Positions 33,279 through 48,167 of a stretch of DNA of 64,000 nucleotides are shown here, in pieces. Every line of letters begins with the position of its first letter. Position 1 is the stretch's first letter. The position numbers and the translations under genes are program-made. The notes under the pieces were generated by a model. The model did not search any database. It was not told where the DNA came from and was given only the letters and a program-made list of their open reading frames with translations. The stretch comes from Alkalicaulis satelles (lineage in GTDB: Bacteria > Pseudomonadota > Alphaproteobacteria > Caulobacterales > Maricaulaceae), in NCBI RefSeq assembly GCF_008630495.1, contig NZ_VWOJ01000001.1:930001-994000 (forward strand). Direction: 5' to 3'.

Positions 33279-33617
33279 ATGCGTGATCAATTGCTTGCCG
33301 TAGTTGTGGCGGCCGCTGGCGGCGCGGCGCTGTATTTCATGCCGGTCAATGGCAATGGCGCCGAACCGCCCGCTGACGAGGCTGCAGACAATGCGGTGGA
33401 AGAGGCGCTGGACGCGGCCGGCGAGGCCGCTGACGAGCTGGGCGCCATGATCGAGGACCTGGTTGAGGGTGATGAGCCGGTCCCGCCCGGCGACCCCGAA
33501 CCGGAGCCCGAGCCCGAGCCTGAACCTGAACCGGAACCGGACCCCGAGCCGGAACCTGAGCCCGAGCCCGAGCCCGATCCCAACGGGGATGACGGCGACG
33601 GCCCGGCCGAGGAGTAA
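33279..33617 (+). CDS. Membrane-anchored acidic Pro/Glu-repeat protein
   Basis: This 112-residue protein consists of one N-terminal membrane helix (QLLAVVVAAAGGAALYFMPV), an acidic Ala/Glu-rich stretch (residues 30-65) and a Pro-Glu/Asp-Pro repeat tail (about residues 68-105) with no folded domain after it. The N-terminus is clearly related to that of the next gene (LLAxVVAxAGGAALYxxP in both), as is the repeat, so it looks like a paralogue that lost, or never had, the peptidase domain. GAGGGG precedes the ATG. Its last codons contain the ribosome binding site of the next gene (GAGGAG), so the two are coupled. It probably spans part of the periplasm; its function is unknown. Confidence 0.7.
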   Translation: MRDQLLAVVVAAAGGAALYFMPVNGNGAEPPADEAADNAVEEALDAAGEAADELGAMIEDLVEGDEPVPPGDPEPEPEPEPEPEPEPDPEPEPEPEPEPDPNGDDGDGPAEE

Positions 33618-33622
33618 GGGCC

Positions 33623-34741
33623 ATGTCCGCCGCTCGCGACATCCTGCTGGCCGCAGTGGTCGCTGTCGCGGGCGGCGCGGCGCTCTATTACTTTCCGCTG
33701 GACGATGTTCCGGCGCCCCCCGGGCCGGTCGAGCCCGGGCCTGGGGAGCCTGATCCCGATCCGGGGCCGGAGCCTGATCCCGGCCCTGATCCGGAGCCAG
33801 AGCCAGAGACGGAGCCAGAGCCGGATCCTGATCCGGAGCCGGATCCCGATCCCTCGCCCGGTCCGCTGGACCCGGACGGCGCGGTGTTCGCCTGGGCGCC
33901 GCCCGGCGAGCTGCCCACCTTCGACTACCGCAATAATGTGGACGTGGCCAACCGCTCCGGCTTTGGCTGGGACGGTTCGGATGAGCTGTCGCGCAATTAT
34001 GTGTTCGCCCCGGACCTGACCTGGCCGCTGGACGGGCCGGGCTACGCCAACACCCAGGTCTACCGCCCCGGCGGGCAATTTTCCGGCGTGGGCGGTCCGG
34101 GCGGATCGGGCGAATGCGACGCGCGCAATTTCGATTACCCGTGGGAAGACAATTTCTGCGAACGGCGCGGCACGTCCACCCGCAATCCCTTCTGCCCCAA
34201 TAACGCCCACGGCCACCATGTGGGCCAGGATATCAGGCCGCAGCAATGCACCCGCAACTTCCCGCTGGAAGAGCGCCAGATGGCGGTGGCGGTGACCGAC
34301 GGCTATATCTCTTCGGTCGCCTCCATGACCGTGCGCCTGCGCGGCGATGACGGGCGGACCTACTGGTATATGCATCTGGAGCACTGGGATAATTGCGACC
34401 TGTCGCAGCTGACCACCCCGGCCCAGTGCAGCGCCGCCAACCTGCCCAGCGTGTGCGAACGCTCCGCGCTGGAAGTGGAGGCCGGACAGGACGTGCGCGC
34501 AGGCGATCCCATCGGGCGGGTATCCAACTGGTTCGGCATTGGCTGGAGCAATGGCGCCTGCCGGCGGTCCCTGACCACCGACCATCTGCATTTCGAGATC
34601 CGCGACACCATCGATCCCGACGGCAGCTTCACCGCCAGCGCGGTGCCGGTGCCGCCCTATTCCTCGCTGGTGACGGCCTATCTGCGATTTATCGGCGCCG
34701 ACGAAGCCGACTTCCCCGACTGGGAAGAAGCGGAGTTCTGA
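33623..34741 (+). CDS. Membrane-anchored M23 (LytM-like) peptidase-domain protein with Pro/Glu linker
   Basis: This 372-residue protein has an N-terminal membrane helix (residues 6-24), a long Pro/Glu/Asp linker (about 28-85) and a C-terminal M23-type metallopeptidase domain. Zinc-ligand-like residues are in GHHVGQDIRP (HxxxD pattern, about residue 194), YWYMHLEHW, and TTDHLHFEIRD (HxH, about residue 322). Several cysteines in the domain (ECDARNF, NFCERRG, FCPNNAH, QQCTRNF, NCDLSQL, PAQCSAA, SVCERSA, GACRRSL) suggest disulfides and periplasmic location. Such proteins cut peptidoglycan cross-links or activate amidases; the position beside the dcw cluster suits a cell-wall role. Whether it is active or a LytM-type activator cannot be told. 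Confidence 0.82.
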   Translation: MSAARDILLAAVVAVAGGAALYYFPLDDVPAPPGPVEPGPGEPDPDPGPEPDPGPDPEPEPETEPEPDPDPEPDPDPSPGPLDPDGAVFAWAPPGELPTFDYRNNVDVANRSGFGWDGSDELSRNYVFAPDLTWPLDGPGYANTQVYRPGGQFSGVGGPGGSGECDARNFDYPWEDNFCERRGTSTRNPFCPNNAHGHHVGQDIRPQQCTRNFPLEERQMAVAVTDGYISSVASMTVRLRGDDGRTYWYMHLEHWDNCDLSQLTTPAQCSAANLPSVCERSALEVEAGQDVRAGDPIGRVSNWFGIGWSNGACRRSLTTDHLHFEIRDTIDPDGSFTASAVPVPPYSSLVTAYLRFIGADEADFPDWEEAEF

Positions 34742-34761
34742 CGAGGGCTGGGCGCAAGGCC

Positions 34762-35055
34762 TCAGGCCGGTTTGTGCGGATGGGCGTCCAGTTCCAGGCC
34801 CAGCGCCTTCATCACCGCCAGCGTGGTCTTCAGCGTGGGATTGCCCGCCTCGCTCAGGGACCGGTAGAGATGCTCGCGCGACAGTCCGGTCGCTTGTGCG
34901 ATCTGCGTCATCCCCTTGGCGCGCGCCGCCACACCAAGGGCATGGGCGATATAGGCCGGGTCCTGGGTCTGGAAGGCTTCGGCCATGAACACCGCCACGG
35001 CCTCGCCCTCACTGAGGTCCTCTGCCGGATCATAGGGCGTCAACATGTCAGCCAT
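34762..35055 (-). CDS. HI1420-family addiction-module antitoxin, apparently without toxin
   Basis: This 97-residue DNA-binding protein matches the HI1420/'putative addiction module antidote' family: YDPAEDLSEGEAVAVFMAEAF at the start, then a helix-turn-helix GMTQIAQATGLSREHLYRSLSEAGNPTLKTTLAVMKAL. The ATG at 35055 is chosen over 35106 because the family starts with this segment. The RelE/HI1419-type toxin normally precedes it in the same operon; here only 97 bases separate it from the ftsA stop and no toxin fits. A short open stretch reading PLARAWSKDDG ends in a TGA overlapping the antitoxin start and may be the last trace of a toxin. It stands where ftsZ usually follows ftsA. Confidence 0.78.
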   Translation of the reverse strand: MADMLTPYDPAEDLSEGEAVAVFMAEAFQTQDPAYIAHALGVAARAKGMTQIAQATGLSREHLYRSLSEAGNPTLKTTLAVMKALGLELDAHPHKPA

Positions 35056-35152
35056 CGTCTTTGCTCCATGCCCTGGCCAGCGGCCCGGATCACAGTGGCA
35101 TTCCAAGGCAGGCAGGGCCAGTCATAAGCCCGGTGAACGCGTTACGCCCCCT

Positions 35153-36481
35153 TCAAAAACTCTCCGCGAACCAGCGCCAGACGGCCGCCGGACCGCGTTC
35201 GGCGGGGGCGGCGGCCTTGCGGCCGCGCGGGGCGGGGGTGAGGGCGCGGGGCAGTCCGGCCAGCGCTTCGGGCGGGCCGTTGACGGCGCGCAGGATCAGG
35301 CCGGCGCCCGCGCTGAAGGCCGGGCCGCTGACCGCGTCGCCCAGGCCGTTGAGGGTTTCGGGCCGGCCGATGCGCACCTGCTTGCTCATCACCCGTCCGG
35401 CCAGCTGGGTGATGCCCGGCGTCTGGGACGCGCCGCCCGTCAGCACCAGGCCGCGCCCGGCTGCGCCTGCCGCCCCGGCGGTTTTCACCCGGTCGCGGGC
35501 CAGCTCGAATATCTCTTCCAGGCGCGGGCGGATGATGGCGTTGAGCATGGCGCGCGGATGCTGGGTCATGGTGTGGGACGCGCCCCCCGCCAGCGGCGGC
35601 GCCTCGATCATCACCTGATCGTCCTCGGGGCTGTCCAGCGCGCTGCCGCTGAGCGCCTTGATGCGTTCGGCGGCGGCCAGCGGCGTGGACAGGCCGCGCG
35701 CGATATCGCTGGTCACATGGGCGCCGCCCACGGGCAGGGCGTCCACATGCTGCAACACGCCTTCGGCGAAGATGGACAGGGTGGTCAGCTGGGCGCCCAT
35801 ATCGATCACCATCACGCCGAGCTCCAGCTCGTCGGCGGTCAGGGCCGCCAGGCCCGAGGCGTAGGGCGTGGCGGTCACGCCGGCCACCGAATAGCCCGCC
35901 CGCTCCACGCAGGCGGCGAGATTATGCAAGGGGTCGGCCGCGCAGCTGACCAGATGCAGGTCCACGCCCAGCACCTCGCCCACCATGGCGCGCGGGTCCT
36001 TGACCCCGCGATGGCCGTCCACCCGCCAGGACAGGGCCAGCGCATGCACGATGGCCCGGCCCGGCTCGTCAAACGCGCTGGCGGCTTCATGGATGATGCG
36101 GCGCAGATCGCGCTCGCGCACCTCGCGCTGGTCCAGCTCCATGTCCACGGCGATGCGCGTGGAGGACGGCGCGCCGCAGGCGGCGGCGACATGCAGGGCG
36201 CTCACCGTCTGGCCGGCCATGCGCTCGGCATTGTCCACCGCAGCGCGGATGGCGCTGGCGGCGGCCTCCATGTCCACCACCGCGCCGGCGCGCACGCCGC
36301 GCGTGGGCACATGGCCGACGCCGATCACCCGCGGACGCAGGCCCGCCAGGGTCGGTTCGGTGCGCGCGATGAAGCACACGGTCTTGGACGCGCCCAGATC
36401 CAGCGCGGCATAGAGGGCGGGCTTGCGCGCGCCTGCGCTCTCCCCGCCTGCAGCGCCGAACATCCCCATCACCCCCATCAC
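35153..36481 (-). CDS. ftsA: Cell division protein FtsA
   Basis: FtsA (442 residues) is the actin-like protein that tethers FtsZ to the membrane and recruits later division proteins. ALDLGASKTVCFIARTE is the phosphate-1 motif (about residues 26-42), VMVIDMGAQLTTLSIF the phosphate-2 region and GLVLTGGASQTPG the adenosine motif. The SHS2/1C domain is present around residues 100-180. The C-terminal AAVWRWFAESF is the amphipathic membrane-targeting helix. Its ATG overlaps ftsQ by four bases. It is the last gene of the dcw operon, and unusually ftsZ does not follow it. Confidence 0.96.
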   Translation of the reverse strand: MMGVMGMFGAAGGESAGARKPALYAALDLGASKTVCFIARTEPTLAGLRPRVIGVGHVPTRGVRAGAVVDMEAAASAIRAAVDNAERMAGQTVSALHVAAACGAPSSTRIAVDMELDQREVRERDLRRIIHEAASAFDEPGRAIVHALALSWRVDGHRGVKDPRAMVGEVLGVDLHLVSCAADPLHNLAACVERAGYSVAGVTATPYASGLAALTADELELGVMVIDMGAQLTTLSIFAEGVLQHVDALPVGGAHVTSDIARGLSTPLAAAERIKALSGSALDSPEDDQVMIEAPPLAGGASHTMTQHPRAMLNAIIRPRLEEIFELARDRVKTAGAAGAAGRGLVLTGGASQTPGITQLAGRVMSKQVRIGRPETLNGLGDAVSGPAFSAGAGLILRAVNGPPEALAGLPRALTPAPRGRKAAAPAERGPAAVWRWFAESF

Positions 36482-38294: not shown

Positions 38295-39205
38295 GCGGGC
38301 TCTCCCACGCGGCGGACTTCCCAGTCCAGATCGACGCCGAACTGCGCCTTCACCTGCGCGCGCACGGTCTCGCCCAGGGTTTCGAGATCGCTGGCGCTCG
38401 CCGTGCCGTCATTGATCAGGAAATTGCAGTGCTGCTCGGAAAAGCGCGCCCCGCCCACCGGCTTGCCGCGCCAGCCCGCCGCATCGATCAGCTGCCAGGC
38501 CGAGCGCCCGCCCGACAGCGCCGGATCGGGGTTCTTGAAGGTGGAGCCGGAGGTTTTCTCCCGGATCGGCTGGGTGCTTTCGCGCCGCGCCGTGATCGCG
38601 TCCATGCGCTGCGTGATGGCGGCCGGATCATCGGCGCGGCCTTCAAACACCGCCTCGACGAAAATCCAGTCGGCTGGCGCGTCGCTGTGGCGATAGGCGT
38701 AGCCCATCTCGTCGAGCGGCACGATCAGCCGGCGCCCGCGCCGGTCCAGCGCCACGGCCTCCACCAGCACATCGCGCGTCTCGGCGTTATAGCAGCCCGC
38801 ATTCATGCGCAGCGCCCCGCCGATCGTGCCGGGCACGCCGACGAAAAACTCAAGCCCCGCAATGCCCGCCTTCGCCGCGGCTTTGGCGACCGTCTTGTCC
38901 AGCGCCGCCGTCCCGGCGCGCAGGCGCAAGCCCTCGGCCTGAATGCGTCCGAAGGCCGGGGTGAGCTTCACCGTCACCCCCTTCAGCCCGCCATCACGCA
39001 CCAGCGTATTGGACCCCGCGCCGAGCACATGGACGGGAATATCGCGCGGCGTCTCGGCCAGGAAGCGCGCCAGATCGGCCTCGTCGGCGGGCAGGAACAG
39101 CACTTGCGCCGGTCCGCCCACGCGCAGCCAGGTGATGCCGGAGAGCGGCGCGCCTTCAATCAGCTTGCCGCGCACGGGCGGGAGGCGGGTGAGGAGCGCG
39201 CTCAC
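38291..39205 (-). CDS. murB: UDP-N-acetylenolpyruvoylglucosamine reductase
   Basis: MurB (304 residues) is the FAD-dependent enzyme that reduces UDP-GlcNAc-enolpyruvate to UDP-MurNAc. Motifs are [46 protein letters not shown], the serine acid donor in TSGSTFKNP, and [15 protein letters not shown]. The length and order indicate the short (type II-like) MurB found in alphaproteobacteria. It overlaps murC and ddlB by four bases on either side, so translation is coupled along the operon. Confidence 0.96.
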
Positions 39206-40611
39206 CCCGCCGCCTCCAGCCGCTCCGGCAGTTCCGCCGCCCAGGCGGTGATGTCGCCGGCGCCCAGGCAGACCACCAGATCGCCAGACGCGATGCGGGA
39301 TTTGAGATCGGCGGCCAGCGTCTCGCGCGTGGTGGCCGACGCGTCGCGGTGGGAGTGGCGTTGCAGGCCGGCCACCAGCCCGTCCTGATCAGCGCCCTCG
39401 ATGGGCGTTTCGCCGGCTGAATAGACCGGCGCCACCAGCACGCTGTCGGCGTCATTGAAGCAGGTGCAGAACTCTTCAAACAGGTCATGCAGGCGCGTGT
39501 AGCGGTGGGGCTGGACCACGGCGACCACCCGGCCCTCGCCGGCGCGCTGGCGCGCGGCTTTGAGCACCGCGGCGATCTCCACCGGGTGATGGCCGTAATC
39601 ATCAATGACGGCGACGCCGCCCGCCTCGCCCACCAGGGTGAAGCGGCGCTTGACGCCCTTGAACCCGGCCAGGCCTTTTCGCGCCTCGGCCTCCTGCCCG
39701 CCCAGCGCCTGCACCACCGCCAGCGCCGCGGCGGCGTTGAGCACGTTGTGCTCGCCGGTCATGGGCAGGGCGAGGCCCGCCCAGGTGGCCGGTTCGGCGC
39801 CGCGCGCCTGGAAGCGCAGGTCAAAGCGCGCGCCCGTGGTGTCGCCGTCATGATTGACGATGCGCACATCGGCCTGGGGCGAGAAGCCATAGGTGATCAC
39901 CCGGCGGTCCTCGATGCGCGCGGCCAGCGCCTGCACCTCGGGGTGATCCACGCACAGCACGGCGAAGCCGTAGAAGGGCAGGTTCTCGACGAATTGCCGG
40001 AAGGCTTCGCGCAGCGCGTCGAAATCGCCGTAATGCTCCATGTGTTCGGGATCGATATTGGTGATGATCCCCACCGTGCCGCGCAGTTTCAGGAAGGAGC
40101 CGTCGCTCTCGTCGGCCTCCACCACCATCCAGCCGCCCTCGCCCATCTTGGCGTTGGAGCCATAGGCCGAAATGATGCCGCCATTGATCACGGTGGGATC
40201 AAACCCGGCGGCATCCATCAGGGCGGCCACCAGCGAGGTGGTGGTGGTCTTGCCATGGGTGCCGGCCACCGCGACCGAATGCTTCAGGCGCATCAGCTCG
40301 GCCAGCATTTCGGCGCGGCGCACCACCGGGATGCGCCGGGTGCGCGCCGCTGCAAGCTCGGGATTGTCGCGGCGCACGGCGCTGGACACCACCAGCGCGC
40401 CGGCCCCGTCGATATTGTCCGCCGCATGGCCGATATGGACCACCGCGCCCTTGTCGCGCAGGCGCTGGACATTGGGGCTGTCCTTGATGTCCGAGCCGGT
40501 GACCTGATAGCCCAGATTGAGCATCACCTCGGCGATGCCGCTCATGCCGATCCCGCCAATCCCGACGAAATGCACAGGCGAAGCGGCGGCGGCGAGGTCT
40601 CTGGGCGGCAT
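39202..40611 (-). CDS. murC: UDP-N-acetylmuramate--L-alanine ligase
   Basis: MurC (469 residues) adds L-alanine to UDP-MurNAc. It has the N-terminal Rossmann motif [16 protein letters not shown], an intact P-loop [15 protein letters not shown] (about residues 116-130), the EADESDGSF acidic loop, [12 protein letters not shown] and the C-terminal [10 protein letters not shown]. All Mur-ligase catalytic residues are therefore present, which contrasts sharply with the murD homologue upstream in the same operon. It starts five bases after murG and overlaps murB. Confidence 0.97.
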
Positions 40612-40616
40612 GAAGG

Positions 40617-41705
40617 CTACTCCGCGGCGCGTTCGATCAGATCAGCCAGCGCCTCATGCGCATCGGGGCGGCCGGCGGCGCGGGCCGCCGCCGCGCGCGC
40701 GGCGAGAGCTTCGCCGTCCGCCAGCAGCGTTTCAAGGCGCTGTGACAGGCTTTGTGCGGTGACATCGCGCTCGGCCATCACCTCCGCCCCGCCCGCATGG
40801 GCGAGGCCTTGGGCATTGGCGCTCTGGTGATCGTCCATGGCGATGGCCAGCGGCACAAGGATGGCCGGGCGCCCGATGGCCGCCAGCTCCGACACTGACG
40901 AGGCCCCCGCGCGCGAGATCACCAGATGGGCCTGCCCGTAGCGCGCGCCCATATCGTCAAAGAAGGGCGAGAGCTCGGCCTTGACGCCCGCCGCGTCATA
41001 AACGGCGCGGGCGCGCTCCAGGCTGTCCTGGCGGGTCTGCTGCACGACGCTGAGACGCTGGCGCAAGGCTTCGGGCAGCAGCGCGACCGCCTCGGGCACG
41101 GTTTCAGACAATATGCGCGCGCCCAGACTGCCGCCCAGCACCAGAAGCCGGATCTCGCCATCACGCGCCGGGGCGGCATAGGGGGCCGCACGTGCGCTGA
41201 GCACGTGGGCGCGCACCGGATTGCCGGTGACGGCGTGACGGGCGCGGGCGGGCAGGCGGTCGAGGCGGTCAAAGCCCGACGCGACGGAGTGGGCGGACCC
41301 GGCGAACAGGCGGTTGACCCGGCCCAGCACCGCATTCTGCTCATGGATCACAAACGGCAGGCCCGACAGGCGCGCCGCGGCCAGCAGCGGAAAGGCCGGA
41401 TAGCCGCCAAACCCCGCCGCCACATCCGCACCGAAGGCCTTGAGCAGCTTGCGCGTCGCCATCATCCCGGAGGCCAGATCGGCCAGCGCGCCGGGCAGGC
41501 GCAGCGGATTGGACTGGAACGGGCTGGAGGCGCGGATGACGCTCACCCCCTCGCCGGGGAAATCGCCGGTGTGGCGCGCCCCGCGCGCATCGGTGATCAG
41601 GGCCACCTGCCAGCCGCGCGCGATCAGGGTTTCGGCGGCCGCGCGCGCCGGAAAGATATGCCCGCCCGTGCCGCCTGCGGCGATGATCAGCCTGCGCGCG
41701 CTCAC
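40617..41705 (-). CDS. murG: UDP-GlcNAc:lipid I N-acetylglucosaminyltransferase MurG
   Basis: MurG (362 residues) is a peripheral GT-B enzyme that converts lipid I to lipid II on the inner face of the membrane. Motifs are [15 protein letters not shown] (G loop 1), [39 protein letters not shown] (G loop 3), and the UDP-binding [24 protein letters not shown] with DDHQSANA. The gene overlaps ftsW by four bases and ends five bases before murC. Confidence 0.97.
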
Positions 41706-42832
41706 GCCCCGGCTCCCGCCGCGCGCAGGCGGCGCGGCTGATAGGCGCCCGGCCTGTGCCGGGTCAGCGCCAGCAGGAGCCCGGCCGAAAACGCCAACGC
41801 CAGCATGGACGACCCGCCATAGGACAGGAAGGGCAGCGTCATGCCGGTGGACGGGGCCAGATCGAGATTGACCGCGATATTGACCAGCGCCTGAAGCGCG
41901 AACAGCAGGGCCAGGCCCGCCGTGGCCAGCCGCGCGAACGGATCATTGAGCCGCAGGGCCAGCATCCAGGCGCGCGCGAACAGCAGCGCATAGAGCGCGA
42001 TGATCATCAGCATGGCCAGCGCGCCGAACTCCTCGCCCGCCACCGCGAAGATATAGTCGTTATGGGCTTCGGGCAGGATGTGCTTGATGCGCCCCTCGCC
42101 CGGCCCGGCGCCCCACAGCCCGCCATGGCCGATGGCTTCCAGTGCGATATCGGTCTGGCTGCGCGCGCCCGAACCGCCGGAGAGGAAGTCCTGCACCCGG
42201 CGCTGGATATAGGGCACCAGATGCATCGCCGCGGCCCCGCCCGCCGCAATGGCGGCGCCCAGCCCGGCGGTCCAGCGCCAGGACAGGCCGGCGATCCATA
42301 GCAGGGCTGCGAAGATGAGGGTGATCAGCGCGGTCTGGCCCAGATCGGGCTGGCGCGTCAGCAAGAGCACGGCCAGCGCGTAGATCACCAGCGCCATCAG
42401 CCGGCCCGGCGCGGGCGCGCCGCGGTCTTCCTCGGTGAACAGCCAGGCGGTGATGATGATGAAGGCCGGCTTGAAGAACTCGCTGGGCTGCAGGGAGAAA
42501 CCGCCCAGATGCAGCCAGCGCGTGGAGCCGTTGACGTTCGCGCCGAAGACCAGAACCGCCGCCATCAGCACCAGCGATCCCAGCAGCATCAGTCCGGACA
42601 TGCGCCGCACGCCGGTGAGCGAAAAGCTTGCGCTGATCATCAGGATGATCAGGCCCGCAGCCATGAACATGGCCTGGCGGCGCACATAGAAGAAGGGATC
42701 GGCGGCGCTGGACACGGCGGGGCTGGCGGCGAACGACAGCACAAGGCCCATGCCCAGGAGGAAGATGATCATCCCCAGCAAGGGCTTGTCCAGCTCGCGC
42801 AGGACCCGCGAATAGCGCCGGGCGGGGCTCAT
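41702..42832 (-). CDS. ftsW: Septal peptidoglycan polymerase FtsW (SEDS)
   Basis: FtsW (376 residues) is the SEDS-family glycan polymerase that works with FtsI at the septum. It has about ten membrane helices. STRWLHLGGFSLQPSEFFKPA, LLLTRQPDLGQTALI (with the catalytic aspartate), GHGGLWGAGPGEGRIKHILPEAHNDYIFAV and TMTLPFLSYGGSSML-type segments match the family. The ATG overlaps the neighbouring murD homologue by four bases and its stop overlaps murG. It is full length and all conserved residues are present. Confidence 0.96.
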   Translation of the reverse strand: MSPARRYSRVLRELDKPLLGMIIFLLGMGLVLSFAASPAVSSAADPFFYVRRQAMFMAAGLIILMISASFSLTGVRRMSGLMLLGSLVLMAAVLVFGANVNGSTRWLHLGGFSLQPSEFFKPAFIIITAWLFTEEDRGAPAPGRLMALVIYALAVLLLTRQPDLGQTALITLIFAALLWIAGLSWRWTAGLGAAIAAGGAAAMHLVPYIQRRVQDFLSGGSGARSQTDIALEAIGHGGLWGAGPGEGRIKHILPEAHNDYIFAVAGEEFGALAMLMIIALYALLFARAWMLALRLNDPFARLATAGLALLFALQALVNIAVNLDLAPSTGMTLPFLSYGGSSMLALAFSAGLLLALTRHRPGAYQPRRLRAAGAGA

Positions 42833-44181
42833 GCCGCATCTCCCTGTTTCAATCGGCCGGTCAGCCGGTCCAGCGCCGCGGCCAGGGCGGCGCTGTCCTC
42901 ATGGACCTGCTCTGGACCGCGCCGGGTTGACGGAGCGTATAGAAGCTGCGCCCGCCCGCCGCTGAGCATGGCGCCGTGCAGCGCACGCGCCAGCGCCTCG
43001 TCCAGCCCCGCCGCCGTGCGGCAGGCCAGGCGCTTGCCCAGCTTGCGCACCAGGCGCGGGTCCGGGCCGGTGAGGATCAGCCGCTGCAAATGATCCGGCA
43101 GGGGGCTGGCGAACGCCGCCGCGTCGAGGCCGGGATCGGCGATCCACCAGACCGGAAGGTCCGGGGTTATGGCGTCAAGCGTTTCGCGCGGGTCTTGCGC
43201 GGCGCTGTGATCGATGATCTCCACCGCGCCCAGCTGGAAGACCGGCGCGCGCAGACCCTGAGCGCCGGGAAAGCTGGCGAGCGCCGCCTCCATCGCATCT
43301 GCGTCCGCGCCCAGCGCCAGAGCCAGCGCCGCCGCGCCGGCGATCAGTCCGGGCGCCAGCCCCTCAAGCCCCGCCCCGCTGACGCGCCAGTGGCGGCCCG
43401 CGCCATGAGTGCGCGCGTCATGCAGCCGTCCGCCGATCAGATAGACGCCCTCGCCCAGCGCCATGCGGCCGGAACAGGCGATCAGGCGCTCGCGGTCCAT
43501 CCCGCCCTTGCGCAGCGCCGCCAGCCGCGCCCCGGCGCCGGGCGCATCCATGTCGATCAGGGCCGGGCCGCTGCAGCGCGCGGCGAGGCTTGCGAGCTCC
43601 TCGGCGCTGACATCTGCGTCCGGTCCCAGCCACAACGCATGCGGCGCCAGGTCCGGCGCGCGGGCGCGCTCGGCGGCGCTGGCGGTGATCAGGGAGAGGC
43701 TGCCCGCGCGCAAGGGCGGGGCGTCAAACAAGGCGCGGCCCCAGCCGCCGGGGCGCGCATCAAGCCCGCTGCATTGCATAATCCAGCCCGCCAGCGCCAT
43801 CGCGCCATGGGCTTGCGGCCCGCCCGGGGCCAGCGCCAGGCGCGCGCCGGGCCGGGCGGCCAGGGCGTGTGCGAACAGGGCCAGCTCGGTGGTCACCGGC
43901 GCAGCGGCGGCGCTTGCCAGCGCCAGCAGGCCGTTATCATCGGGCCCATCCAGCCGGGCGGCGTCATCAATGGCCAGCACCGCCAGATCGCCCCAGTCGC
44001 GCGCGGTGGGATGTTCGATCACCACGCCTTCGCGCGCCGCTCTCTTGCGCCGGGCCTCATCCTCGTCCCAACCGGTGACCGGCGTTCCACCCGCGGCCAG
44101 CGCGCGGGCCATGGCGCGTCCGCGCGCGCCCAGGCCCAGGATGCAGGCCCGTCCTGCAGCGCTGGCGCGGACGGAGATCAC
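42829..44181 (-). CDS. murD: MurD homologue lacking ATP-binding and catalytic motifs (probable pseudoenzyme)
   Basis: By position (between mraY and ftsW) and overall plan this is MurD, the ligase that adds D-glutamate, and its 450 residues are of normal length. The N-terminal Rossmann region ACILGLGARGRAMARALAAGG and the late ALASFPGAQGLR...VFQLGAVEIIDHSAAQDP align with MurD. But the P-loop (GTNGKT in the family) is replaced by APGGPQAHGAM at about residues 118-128; there is no GKT or GKS anywhere. The ELSSYQLE-type loop, the LNxxPDHxDRH motif, the HNxxNxxAA motif and the DSKATN motif are also gone. The frame is uninterrupted and coupled to ftsW by a four-base overlap, so it is translated. 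It cannot work as a normal ligase; see findings. Confidence 0.85.
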   Translation of the reverse strand: MISVRASAAGRACILGLGARGRAMARALAAGGTPVTGWDEDEARRKRAAREGVVIEHPTARDWGDLAVLAIDDAARLDGPDDNGLLALASAAAAPVTTELALFAHALAARPGARLALAPGGPQAHGAMALAGWIMQCSGLDARPGGWGRALFDAPPLRAGSLSLITASAAERARAPDLAPHALWLGPDADVSAEELASLAARCSGPALIDMDAPGAGARLAALRKGGMDRERLIACSGRMALGEGVYLIGGRLHDARTHGAGRHWRVSGAGLEGLAPGLIAGAAALALALGADADAMEAALASFPGAQGLRAPVFQLGAVEIIDHSAAQDPRETLDAITPDLPVWWIADPGLDAAAFASPLPDHLQRLILTGPDPRLVRKLGKRLACRTAAGLDEALARALHGAMLSGGRAQLLYAPSTRRGPEQVHEDSAALAAALDRLTGRLKQGDAA

Positions 44182-44194
44182 GGGCCCTCACCCA

Positions 44195-45295
44195 TCAGCG
44201 CAGCTTCAGCGTCGACAGCCCGATCAGGGCCAGGACGAAGGCGATGATCCAGAAGCGCACCACGATGGTGGATTCCGACCAGCCCAGCTTTTCGAAATGG
44301 TGGTGGATGGGCGCCATCAGGAAGACGCGCTTGCCGGTCAGCTTGTAGCTGGCCACCTGCACCATCACCGAGACCGCCTCGAGCACGAACAGCCCGCCAA
44401 TGATGATCAGCACGATCTCGTGCTTGACCGCCACGGCGATGGCGCCGATGGCGCCGCCCAGCGACAGCGAGCCGGTATCGCCCATGAACACCATGGCCGG
44501 CGGCGCGTTGTACCAGAGAAAGCCCAGCCCGGCCCCGATCATCGCCCCGCAGATCACGGCCAGTTCGCCCGTGCCGGGGGTGAAGTTCAGGAACAGATAA
44601 TTGGAATAGACCGCCGAGCCGACCATGTAGGCGATGATCCCGAAGGCGCCCGCCGCGATCATCACCGGCACGATGGCCAGGCCGTCCAGCCCGTCGGTCA
44701 GATTGACCGCATTGGACGCGCCCACGATCACCAGCACCCCGAAGATGAAGAAGGCGTAGCTCAAGGGGATCAGCACGTCCTTGAAAAAGGGCACGGCCAC
44801 CGAGGTGGCGAAATTCTCCGGCGTGTTGGGCGCGCCATCGAGCAGCTGCACCATCCAGATCACCGCCGCCAGCGCCACCGCGCCCTGCAAGGCCAGCTTG
44901 GCCTTGCCCGACAGGCCGTGATGGGAGCGCTTGGTGACCTTGCGCCAGTCATCGATGAAGCCGATGCCGCCAAAGGCAGCGGTCACGAACATCACCACCC
45001 ACAGATAGGGATTGGACAGATCGCCCCAGATCAGCGTGCCCGCCAGAATGCCGAACAGGATGATGAACCCGCCCATGGTCGGCGTGCCGGCCTTGGAGAT
45101 GACATGGCTTTCCGGCCCGTCGGTGCGGATGGGCTGGGAGCCCTGTTTGCGCAGCCATCCGATGAAGGGCATGCCCGCCACCAGGGCGATCACGAACGCG
45201 GTCATGAGCGCGGCGCCGGTGCGGAAGGTGAGATAGTTCAACAGGTTGAACAGGGCGAAATCATCAGCGAAAGGAGTCAGGAGCAAATACAGCAT
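44195..45295 (-). CDS. mraY: Phospho-MurNAc-pentapeptide transferase MraY
   Basis: MraY (366 residues) is the ten-helix membrane enzyme that makes lipid I from UDP-MurNAc-pentapeptide and undecaprenyl phosphate. It has the family motifs [31 protein letters not shown] with the metal-binding aspartates, [14 protein letters not shown], and the C-terminal [23 protein letters not shown]. All catalytic aspartates and the HHH motif are present. It lies eight bases after murF and thirteen before the murD homologue. Confidence 0.97.
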
Positions 45296-45303
45296 GGCGC
45301 GAT

Positions 45304-46713
45304 TCAGGCCTCGTTTGGCGCGGCGGCGCGGACAGATTTCACGGCGGCGGCGATCTTGTGAACGCCAGATGCGTTGGAGCCCTTGATCAGCACGATATCA
45401 CCCTGGCGCGCCAGAGCCTGGAACTGTTCGAGCCCGGAATTCCAGTCCTTTGCGCTGACGCCTTCCATTCCGGCGGGCAAGGCCTTGATCAGGGCGCTCA
45501 TGCCCGCCCCCACCCCGATCACCAGCTCAACGCCCGCTTCCGCCAGCGGCGCGGCCAGTGCGGCGTGCAGGGCCGGCGCGTCCGGTCCCAGCTCCAGCAT
45601 CTCGCCCAGCACCGCCACCCGGCGCGCGCCCGCATCCGGGGTGCGCTGGGCCAGTGCGGACAGGGCCGCGCGCATGGAGGCGGGGTTGGCGTTATAGCTG
45701 TCATCAATGAGGGTGACGGCGCGCCCGCTGCTGAGCGTGACATCAAAGCGCGCCCCGCGCCCGGCCCCCGGCGTCAGGCCCGCCAGGGTCTCCAGCGCCA
45801 GCTCGGGATCCACCCCGGCGGCCAGCGAGGCGGCCACCGCGCCCGCCGCGTTCACCGCCTGATGGGCGCCGGGCAAGGCCAGGCGGAAGTGGCGCAGCCG
45901 GCCCATCACATCCATCTCGCCCGCCCCGCCCTCGCCATCGGGGGCGTAGCGCAGCACCCGCACAGCGGCGGCGCGCGCAAAGCCGAAATCGAACAGGAAG
46001 CCCGCCCGCGAGCGCATGGCGGCGTCGCGCAGGCGCGGGGCGTAGTCATCATCGGCGGGGATCACCGCCACGCCGTCCACTTCCAGCCCGGTGAAAATCT
46101 CCGCCTTGGCCTCTGCGATGGCCTCCATGGAGCCGAGATTTTCCAGATGGGCCGGGGCGATTCTGGTGATCAGCGCCACATGGGGGCGCACCTGGGCGGT
46201 CAGCGCAGCGATCTCGCCGGCATGGTTCATGCCCATTTCGAACACCGCGCCGCGCGTGTCGGCCGGCATGCGCGCCAGGGTCAGCGGCACGCCCCAGTGA
46301 TTATTATAGCTGGCCACGCTCCAGTGAGCGGGACCGTTCGCGCGCAATATGGCCGCCAGGGCTTCCTTCACGCTGGTCTTGCCCACCGAGCCGGTGACGC
46401 CGATGCGGATGGCCGGGCTGCGCAGGCGCGCGCCCTGACCCAGAGCACGCAGCGCGTCGAGGGTGTCATCCACCACCAGGCGCGGGCCCTCGCAACAGGC
46501 CGGATCAGAGACCAGCACCGCAGCGGCGCCCTTGTCCAGCGCGGCGCGGGCGAAGTCATGGCCGTCGCGCGCGTCTTTGAGCGCCACGAACAGATCGCCC
46601 GGCTGCAGCGTGCGGGTGTCGATGGAGACGCCTGTAGCGCTCCAGCCGCCATCGGTCAGGCGCCCGCCAGCGGCCAGGGCGGCGTCAGCAGCGGTCCAAA
46701 GCGGCGCGGTCAT
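45304..46713 (-). CDS. murF: UDP-MurNAc-tripeptide--D-Ala-D-Ala ligase
   Basis: MurF (469 residues) joins D-Ala-D-Ala to the tripeptide precursor. The N-terminal [27 protein letters not shown] is the MurF substrate domain, the P-loop is [15 protein letters not shown] (about residues 107-121), then [14 protein letters not shown], and the C-terminal [15 protein letters not shown]. These are complete. It overlaps murE by four bases and is followed eight bases later by mraY. Confidence 0.97.
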
Positions 46714-48167
46714 GACCGGCCCTCCCTTTCCTTGAGCAGGCGCGCGACGATGGCCGGCTCGTCAAACGCGATCACCCGGCCGCCGACAATCTGGCCGGTC
46801 TCATGGCCCTTGCCCGCGATCAGCAGCGCATCACCGGGCGCCAGCATCTCAATGCCCGCCCGGATGGCGCTCTCGCGGTCGCCGATTTCAGTTGCGCCCG
46901 GACAGGCGGCCAGGATCGCCGCGCGGATGGAGGCCGGGTCCTCGCTGCGCGGATTATCGTCGGTGACAATGCACACATCAGCCAGGCGCGCCGCCACCGC
47001 GCCCATGGCCGGGCGCTTGGTGGGATCGCGGTCGCCCCCGGCGCCGAACACCAGGATGATGCGCCCGCGCGTATGGGGCCGCGCTGCGCGCAGGAGCTTG
47101 TCCAGACCGTCGGGCGTATGGGCGTAATCGAGCAGCACCGGCGCGCCGTCTTTCGTCATGCCCGCCGGCTGCATCCGCCCGGCCACGCCGGTCAGGCGCT
47201 CCAGCGCGGCGAACACGCTTTGCGCCTCCAGCCCCGACGCGATGGCCATGGCCGCCGCGCCCAGCGCATTGGCGGTCTGGAACTCGCCGATCAGAGGCAG
47301 CTCGATGAGCTGTTCGGCGCCGCGCCAGGCGAAGCGGATGATCTGGCTGGCCGGTTTCGGCGTGATCTCGCGCACGGCCAGATCCCGCCCGCGCCAGCCG
47401 ATGGAGATCACCTCCAGCCCGGCGGCCCTGGCGGTCTGCTCCACGCGCGCCGACCAGTCGGAATCCATGTTCACCACCGCGCTCGTCCCGGACGGCGCCA
47501 GGGCGGTGAACAGGCGCATTTTGGAGGCGAAATAGTCCTCGAAATCAGGGTGATAATCCAGGTGATCCTGGGTCAGATTGGTGAAGGCGCTGACCGAGAT
47601 GCGCGCCCCGTCCATGCGGTGCTGCTTGAGCCCGTGGGAAGAGGCCTCCATGGCCAGATGGGTCACGCCCTCGCCAGCCAGCGCGTCGAGCGCCTGGTGC
47701 AGGGCGATGGCGTCCGGCGTGGTGTAGCCCACCTCAGTGCGCCCGCTTGAACGCGTCACGCCCAGCGTGCCCAGCGCCGCCGCTTCCAGCCCCGCCCCCG
47801 CCCAGATCTGGCGCAGGAATTCCACGGTGGAGCTTTTGCCATTGGTGCCGGTCACCGCCGCGATATGGGCGGGCTGGCGCGGATAAAAGCGCGCAGCGAT
47901 GGCGGCCAGCGCCGCAGCGGGTTCGCGCGCCTCGACCACCGGCACGGGCGCGTCCGTCCCCGGCGGGGCGAGCACGCAGGCCGCGCCGTTATCGACCGCC
48001 ATGGCGATGAACTGGCGTCCGTCCGTGCGCACGCCCGGCAGGGCTGCGAACAGATCGCCGGGCTTCACCTTGCGGCTGTCCAGCGCCAGGCCCGACACGA
48101 CAAGTTCGCCCGCGCCGGGCGGCACTGCGAGCTCAGGGCCCAGGATATCGGCCAGACGCCGGCTCAT
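46710..48167 (-). CDS. murE: UDP-MurNAc-L-Ala-D-Glu--meso-diaminopimelate ligase
   Basis: MurE (485 residues) adds the third residue of the stem peptide. P-loop AAVTGTNGKSSTVEFL (about residues 104-119), EASSHGLKQHRMDG, FTNLTQDHLDYHPDFEDYFASK and LDYAHTPDGLDKLL are intact. The DNPRSEDP motif (about residues 405-412) is the meso-diaminopimelate-specific signature, so the cell has an ordinary Gram-negative DAP-type wall. It overlaps ftsI and murF by four bases each. Confidence 0.97.
   Translation of the reverse strand: MSRRLADILGPELAVPPGAGELVVSGLALDSRKVKPGDLFAALPGVRTDGRQFIAMAVDNGAACVLAPPGTDAPVPVVEAREPAAALAAIAARFYPRQPAHIAAVTGTNGKSSTVEFLRQIWAGAGLEAAALGTLGVTRSSGRTEVGYTTPDAIALHQALDALAGEGVTHLAMEASSHGLKQHRMDGARISVSAFTNLTQDHLDYHPDFEDYFASKMRLFTALAPSGTSAVVNMDSDWSARVEQTARAAGLEVISIGWRGRDLAVREITPKPASQIIRFAWRGAEQLIELPLIGEFQTANALGAAAMAIASGLEAQSVFAALERLTGVAGRMQPAGMTKDGAPVLLDYAHTPDGLDKLLRAARPHTRGRIILVFGAGGDRDPTKRPAMGAVAARLADVCIVTDDNPRSEDPASIRAAILAACPGATEIGDRESAIRAGIEMLAPGDALLIAGKGHETGQIVGGRVIAFDEPAIVARLLKEREGRS

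Follow-up and report, generated by a model that had tools for sequence, protein, structure and literature searches.

A degenerate MurD kept between mraY and ftsW in the dcw cluster of Alkalicaulis satelles, in a genome with MurD2-like and MurL-like genes

The stretch analysed here (the window) comprises 64,000 nucleotides of the Alkalicaulis satelles genome (contig NZ_VWOJ01000001.1, positions 930,001 to 994,000) and carries its division and cell wall (dcw) cluster. In the murD position of this cluster, from mraY to ftsW, lies an open frame whose product, here called pseudo-MurD, lacks the ATP-site and substrate-site motifs of the ligase. The frame (42829..44181) lies on the minus strand and encodes 450 residues from a GTG start without a break; its extent, its integrity and its four-base overlap with ftsW agree with the original prediction, which was made from the sequence alone. 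The cluster order is mraZ, rsmH, a 109-residue open reading frame (ORF), an FtsI-type penicillin-binding protein gene, murE, murF, mraY, pseudo-MurD, ftsW, murG, murC, murB, ddl, ftsQ and ftsA. The features of the locus are as follows.

42829..44181, minus strand: degenerate MurD orthologue (pseudo-MurD), from frame, motif and model searches and a predicted MurD fold
43801..43824, minus strand: former P-loop, residues 120–127, GGPQAHGA where intact outgroup MurDs have GTNGKS or GSNGKS
43579..43584, minus strand: junction of residues 200/201, where alignment with outgroup MurDs places an absent 12-residue segment
42829..42832, minus strand: ATGA, the relic stop overlapping the ftsW start by 4 bases
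44195..45295, minus strand: mraY (TIGR00445, E 1.2e-114)
41702..42832, minus strand: ftsW (TIGR02614, E 3.3e-97, 325.8 bits against a cut-off of 337.5; Pfam FTSW_RODA_SPOVE, E 4e-79)
40617..41705, minus strand: murG (TIGR01133, E 1.1e-82)
39202..40611, minus strand: murC, intact (TIGR01082, E 9.9e-158)
45304..46713, minus strand: murF, intact (TIGR01143, E 1.4e-106)
46710..48167, minus strand: murE, intact (TIGR01085, E 6.3e-130)

The segment expected to read GTNGKT is GGPQAHGA at residues 120–127, and neither GKT nor GKS occurs anywhere in the 450 residues; this replacement and the absence of the other ligase motifs had been predicted, and the protein sequence and alignment bear them out. No Pfam Mur ligase domain was matched at E ≤ 1, while MurC, MurE and MurF of the same operon, expected to be intact, score strongly with Mur_ligase_M (E 1.2e-26, 2.6e-45 and 7e-43, respectively). 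The NCBIfam murD model (TIGR01087), whose cut-off is 211.95 bits, scores the protein at 26.4 bits, with residues 12–107 as its best stretch. We compared the mraY–ftsW stretches of the window, 14 other genomes of its genus and 13 of 88 outgroup genomes, mostly best matches. A degenerate open MurD frame of 425–453 residues is present in 11 of the 15 genus genomes (the relics), and an intact MurD with its P-loop in 13/13 outgroup genomes, including Marinicauda salina (G013). The P-loop Lys is Ala in all 11 relics, and in the alignment they do not match the ELSSYQ, DHxDR, HNxxN, NDSKATN and SPACASFDQF motifs or the conserved AK segment. The SPG loop is gone, any relic keeping at most one of its three conserved columns, and the GGNIG loop is eroded. 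At the 200/201 junction, the segment GYVAAKKRIFAN of the M. salina protein is absent from 11/11 relics; the Lys within it is conserved across the 13 intact outgroup MurDs. Forty-five alignment columns are invariant across the 11 relics, and the relic profile reaches solved MurD weakly (best E 2.2e-5). Sequencing error or assembly fault, checked as a hidden cause of the degenerate frame, is ruled out by the agreement of 11 genomes.

Compared with a dcw MurD, the relic has the same slot, ATGA overlap (11/11 relics and 11/13 intact outgroup murD genes, with script-chosen starts), N-terminal start and predicted three-domain fold and, in the six relics of clade A, 24–33% identity to the intact MurDs of sister genera; it differs in the lost ATP- and substrate-site motifs, the missing 12 residues and the low model score. 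For the window protein, AlphaFold2 predicts a Mur ligase fold of three domains that most resembles MurD, and for a clade B relic a model in which MurD and MurC tie as the closest fold; the MurD-like fold is predicted confidently for both relic clades.

The tree built from MurF, MraY, FtsW and MurG recovers the genus as one clade (support 100) with Marinicauda as its sister (100). Three congeners (G052, G088 and G096) have only 40–53 bp separating mraY and ftsW and no gene in the slot; within the genus, this deletion clade (100) groups with relic clade B (95), and the relic is not indispensable, since these three do without it. In G339, the contig stops inside mraY, cutting the slot. In the MurD tree, the relics form one clade (100) whose nearest neighbour is G010 (100), a genome of another genus in the same family; this placement conflicts with the species tree and may reflect long-branch attraction. 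All 11 relics share the loss of 12 residues around the conserved AK and losses at GGNIG and HNxxN, which argues for a single origin. Taken with relic monophyly, these shared losses suggest that the motifs probably disappeared before the genus radiated.

Selection was estimated with codon model GY+F3X4 as omega, the ratio of nonsynonymous to synonymous rates (dN/dS), for the six clade A relics, four neighbouring genes and six intact outgroup murDs. For the six relics, omega is 0.209, and a model constrained to omega 1 is worse by 237.6 log units; for the four closest relics, it is 0.164 (cost 190.9 log units), and omega is below 1 in all three domains of the clade A relics. The comparison values are 0.119 for murF, 0.084 for murG, 0.060 for ftsW, 0.046 for mraY and 0.066 for the outgroup murDs. 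The ratio of third-position to second-position codon differences is 2.8–3.6 in four close relic pairs, and only 1.8 in G000–G034 and G000–G341 (G000 being the window's own genome). Neutral simulation gave NG86 values of at least 0.816 in 120/120 replicates (means 1.15 and 1.16), compared with 0.233 and 0.236 for two real pairs, and at the observed divergence produced stop codons in 107/120 replicates. The relic protein of clade A is under purifying selection. The expectation that the degenerate form would be conserved under such selection in sister genera thus holds for congeners, with selection in clade A, and fails for the 13 outgroup genomes, whose MurD is intact.

The window's own genome (2,888,634 bases, 8 contigs, 100% complete) encodes one MurD-family ligase above the cut-off, at C1:143391–144671 (266.9 bits), with an intact P-loop, GTKGKS, and ELSSYQ present. 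According to the available portion of PMC8788868, MurD and MurD2 are told apart by four positions, E197, R358, P433 and F435 in X. oryzae numbering. Aligned to E. coli MurD, the ligase has E, R and P in place of D, K and A, and so agrees with MurD2 at three of the four diagnostic positions; the Lys of NDSKATN, taken to be K319 in the same portion of PMC8788868, is L. A second D-glutamate ligase had been predicted elsewhere in the genome. A second MurD-family ligase does exist, but from its residues it looks like MurD2, an L-glutamate-adding enzyme working with MurL. A MurL homologue lies at C1:186316–187653, about 43 kb from MurD2, and matches NF041275, a model named for Xanthomonadales, over nearly its whole length (E 2.9e-79; 266.6 bits, cut-off 700). 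Loss of murD without replacement is ruled out by the presence of this MurD-family ligase and MurL.

Among 99 family genomes, MurL was found in 12, comprising 11/11 genus members and one of the 88 others (G010), and a search of G339–G342 found it in 4/4, giving 15/15 genus genomes. A MurD2-type ligase is present in 11/11 genus genomes of the family sample; in each of G340, G341 and G342, a single MurD-family ligase exceeds the cut-off, classed by score, not residues. Three MurD2 matches have an internal stop in the aligned stretch and run 437–439 residues to the first stop. Within the family sample, MurD2 and MurL are adjacent in 7/11 genus genomes; G342 has them adjacent too. Four congeners and six genomes outside the order have, next to MurD2, genes of a single homologous set, of which three members were scanned and 3/3 match the NCBIfam MurL model. 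MurL is accompanied by an intact MurD-family ligase in all 11 relic genomes. The window's own genome gave no match to glutamate racemase, and MurI was found in 0/11 genus genomes compared with 46/99 family genomes. We infer that the MurD2/MurL route runs in the window's genus.

Some genomes depart from this arrangement. In G062 and G341, MurD2 and MurL sit far from each other on a single contig; in G034, G072 and G340, they occupy separate contigs. G339 (1.7 Mb, 91% complete) has MurL and no MurD-family match at E 1e-35. G135, G242 and G323 were dropped as candidate MurD2/MurL users, because they gave no match to MurL and the gene next to their ligase is that of an MscS-like channel; in the tree, these ligases branch on the side of MurD2, and their first diagnostic residue is V.

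A search with the window's MurD2 in 240 other genomes drawn from the class gave matches at E 1e-50 in ten, each of them outside the order. In those ten, the ftsW match begins 65–124 bp past the end of the mraY match, leaving no space for murD, and seven of them have MurL. A retained dead MurD distinguishes the genus from these seven MurL-bearing alphaproteobacteria, which we infer to have lost murD rather than never to have had it.

On balance, we favour the reading that pseudo-MurD is the dcw murD of this lineage after loss of catalysis, following takeover by MurD2/MurL, and that it has been kept as a selected pseudoenzyme, probably as a non-enzymatic partner. In this scheme, gain of MurD2 and MurL would have come before loss of MurD activity and relieved the former MurD of its task; the dcw gene would then have lost its ATP-site and substrate-site motifs, while a folded three-domain protein, as modelled, would still be made from the frame between mraY and ftsW. 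Pseudo-MurD would serve as a non-enzymatic part in an assembly that brings Mur ligases together with MraY/MurG and FtsW, keeping MurD's place among its partners with the chemistry done elsewhere, and one subclade would later have lost it. A structural part is our best guess at the most likely reason for retention, because of the position, the predicted fold and the contact among Mur enzymes reported in the available portion of PMC6420597. Pseudo-MurD has lost its catalytic residues, is predicted to keep its fold and, in clade A, is under selection at the protein level, as would befit a pseudoenzyme. That it is a non-catalytic subunit of the Mur/Mra/Fts precursor machine, its survival showing a structural role of MurD separable from catalysis, we put forward tentatively.

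Several observations weigh against this reading. The relic omega exceeds those of the neighbouring genes by a factor of 1.8 to 4.5; pairs including G000 or G034 are more relaxed (NG86 0.45–0.54); for G341–G062, pairwise maximum likelihood gives 0.785 compared with 0.197 by YN00 and 0.233 by NG86; and dN/dS for clade B was dropped as saturated (tree length 34.6). What is selected could be avoidance of misfolding, and not a function. Clades A and B share only 29–38% identity, and the fold is a prediction only, made by a program that may fold from remembered families. The relic is dispensable, judging by the three gene-less congeners and by the absence of murD from the slot in 7/7 MurL-bearing genomes outside the order. 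As for the replacement, the fourth diagnostic position of the window's MurD2 (F435 of X. oryzae) is G, the first is D, not E, in the MurD2 of the relic-B and deletion clades (7/11 genus genomes), and the MurL matches fall far under the model cut-off. Absence of MurI was no longer taken to prove the MurL route, as many MurL-free relatives have no MurI either and aminotransferases weakly like D-amino acid transaminase, below the cut-off, occur in 14/15 genus genomes. The seven MurD2 proteins with D at the first position (L013–L016 and L118–L120), like D-glutamate-using MurD in this respect, retain R, P and L; their specificity may be mixed.

A less probable, though still serious, explanation is that the relic is dying and its protein idle, the frame staying open as its translation is coupled to ftsW through ATGA, so that a stop or frameshift would lower FtsW. 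The overlap in all 11 relics fits this, as do an omega above all four neighbours tested, the three gene-less congeners, where ftsW has its own ribosome-site-like stretch (AGGAAG or AGGAAA), and the lack of a slot murD in the seven other MurL-bearing alphaproteobacteria. Coupling explains open frames but not a low omega: alone, it leaves the amino acids free, yet omega in clade A is 0.16–0.21, with all three domains well under 1, 45 columns are invariant, and a MurD-like fold is confidently predicted in both clades.

It seems unlikely that the Mur fold has been reused to bind a nucleotide, precursor or cofactor, as a sensor or new enzyme. Relic-specific fixed residues (D73, D324, A416 and G422, for example, in 10 or 11 of 11), an invariant SGR at 237–239 and weak NAD-domain matches of the window protein's N-terminal Rossmann part would suit such a role; however, the relic-specific fixed positions number only six and do not resemble a catalytic set, and GxGxxG is broken in 5/5 clade B relics. 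The lost SPG loop and eroded GGNIG loop also count against it, and weaken the earlier proposal of a sensor for UDP precursors. More doubtful still is an accessory subunit of the new route, binding and tuning MurD2 or MurL: every relic genome has MurL and an intact MurD-family ligase, but the three deletion genomes and the seven other MurL genomes carry the route genes without a relic. That the relic is a still active MurD using an unusual mechanism, as its operon position and predicted fold might allow, is highly improbable given the loss of the P-loop Lys and every signature motif in 11/11 relics and the presence of MurD2 and MurL homologues.

Pseudoenzymes such as pseudokinases keep a fold and lose the active site, and dead paralogues occur in many enzyme families. 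A selected pseudo-MurD resembles them in its fold, lost active site and selected sequence; it differs in that our literature search gave no pseudo-Mur ligase among the matches listed. By title or opening of the abstract, no degenerate or pseudo-MurD appeared in open-licence papers among those matches, so that retention of a dead MurD by the dcw cluster appears new within them; the MurD2/MurL route itself is already known. The available portions of PMC8788868 and PMC5808125 place that route in Xanthomonas, Micromonospora, Devosia, Parvularcula and others, and do not mention a retained dead MurD; the window's genome is like these in having a MurD2-type ligase and a MurL homologue, and would extend the route to a genus outside the list in that portion of PMC8788868. 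Since Mur ligases are essential enzymes, it is difficult to test whether they are also structural parts of a precursor-delivery complex; a genus with the motifs gone and the protein kept allows a direct test of such a role. What occupies the murD slot, moreover, need not be murD.

Several smaller observations concern the cluster and the search. The 109-residue ORF after rsmH has no Pfam match, nor has an ORF at 33287–34591. The cluster seems to stop at ftsA without ftsZ: none of three FtsZ signature patterns occurs within the window (the 33287–35153 region was noted), the rest of the genome not having been searched for ftsZ. The plasmid collection gave no match. A scan of named genomes returned four loci only: two in Oceanicaulis metagenome-assembled genomes (MAGs), one in an alphaproteobacterium MAG and one in Marinicauda salina, whose MurD is intact. 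NCBI annotates three of the relics as "hypothetical protein".

Relatives of the window's genome stand at what look like consecutive stages: intact MurD only, intact MurD with MurD2/MurL (G010), dead MurD with MurD2/MurL, and no MurD in the slot. G010 has MurL beside MurD2, an intact dcw MurD and no MurI match. Its dcw MurD is 53.8% identical to that of Marinicauda, compared with 59.4–71.6% for the other 11 outgroup genomes; its MraY (79.8%), FtsW (66.4%) and MurF (63.9%) are not low as its MurD is, and its MurG (59.5%) is lowish. In the tree, the G010 MurD2 branches away from the MurD2 proteins of the genus, suggesting that it was gained independently. G010, in which MurD2/MurL occur together with a dcw MurD that is intact but evolving fast, possibly represents an early stage of the same replacement. 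At its MurL locus (L102, L103), MurL and MurD2 stand in a row with a third ligase of Mur type, which by eye resembles MurC/Mpl.
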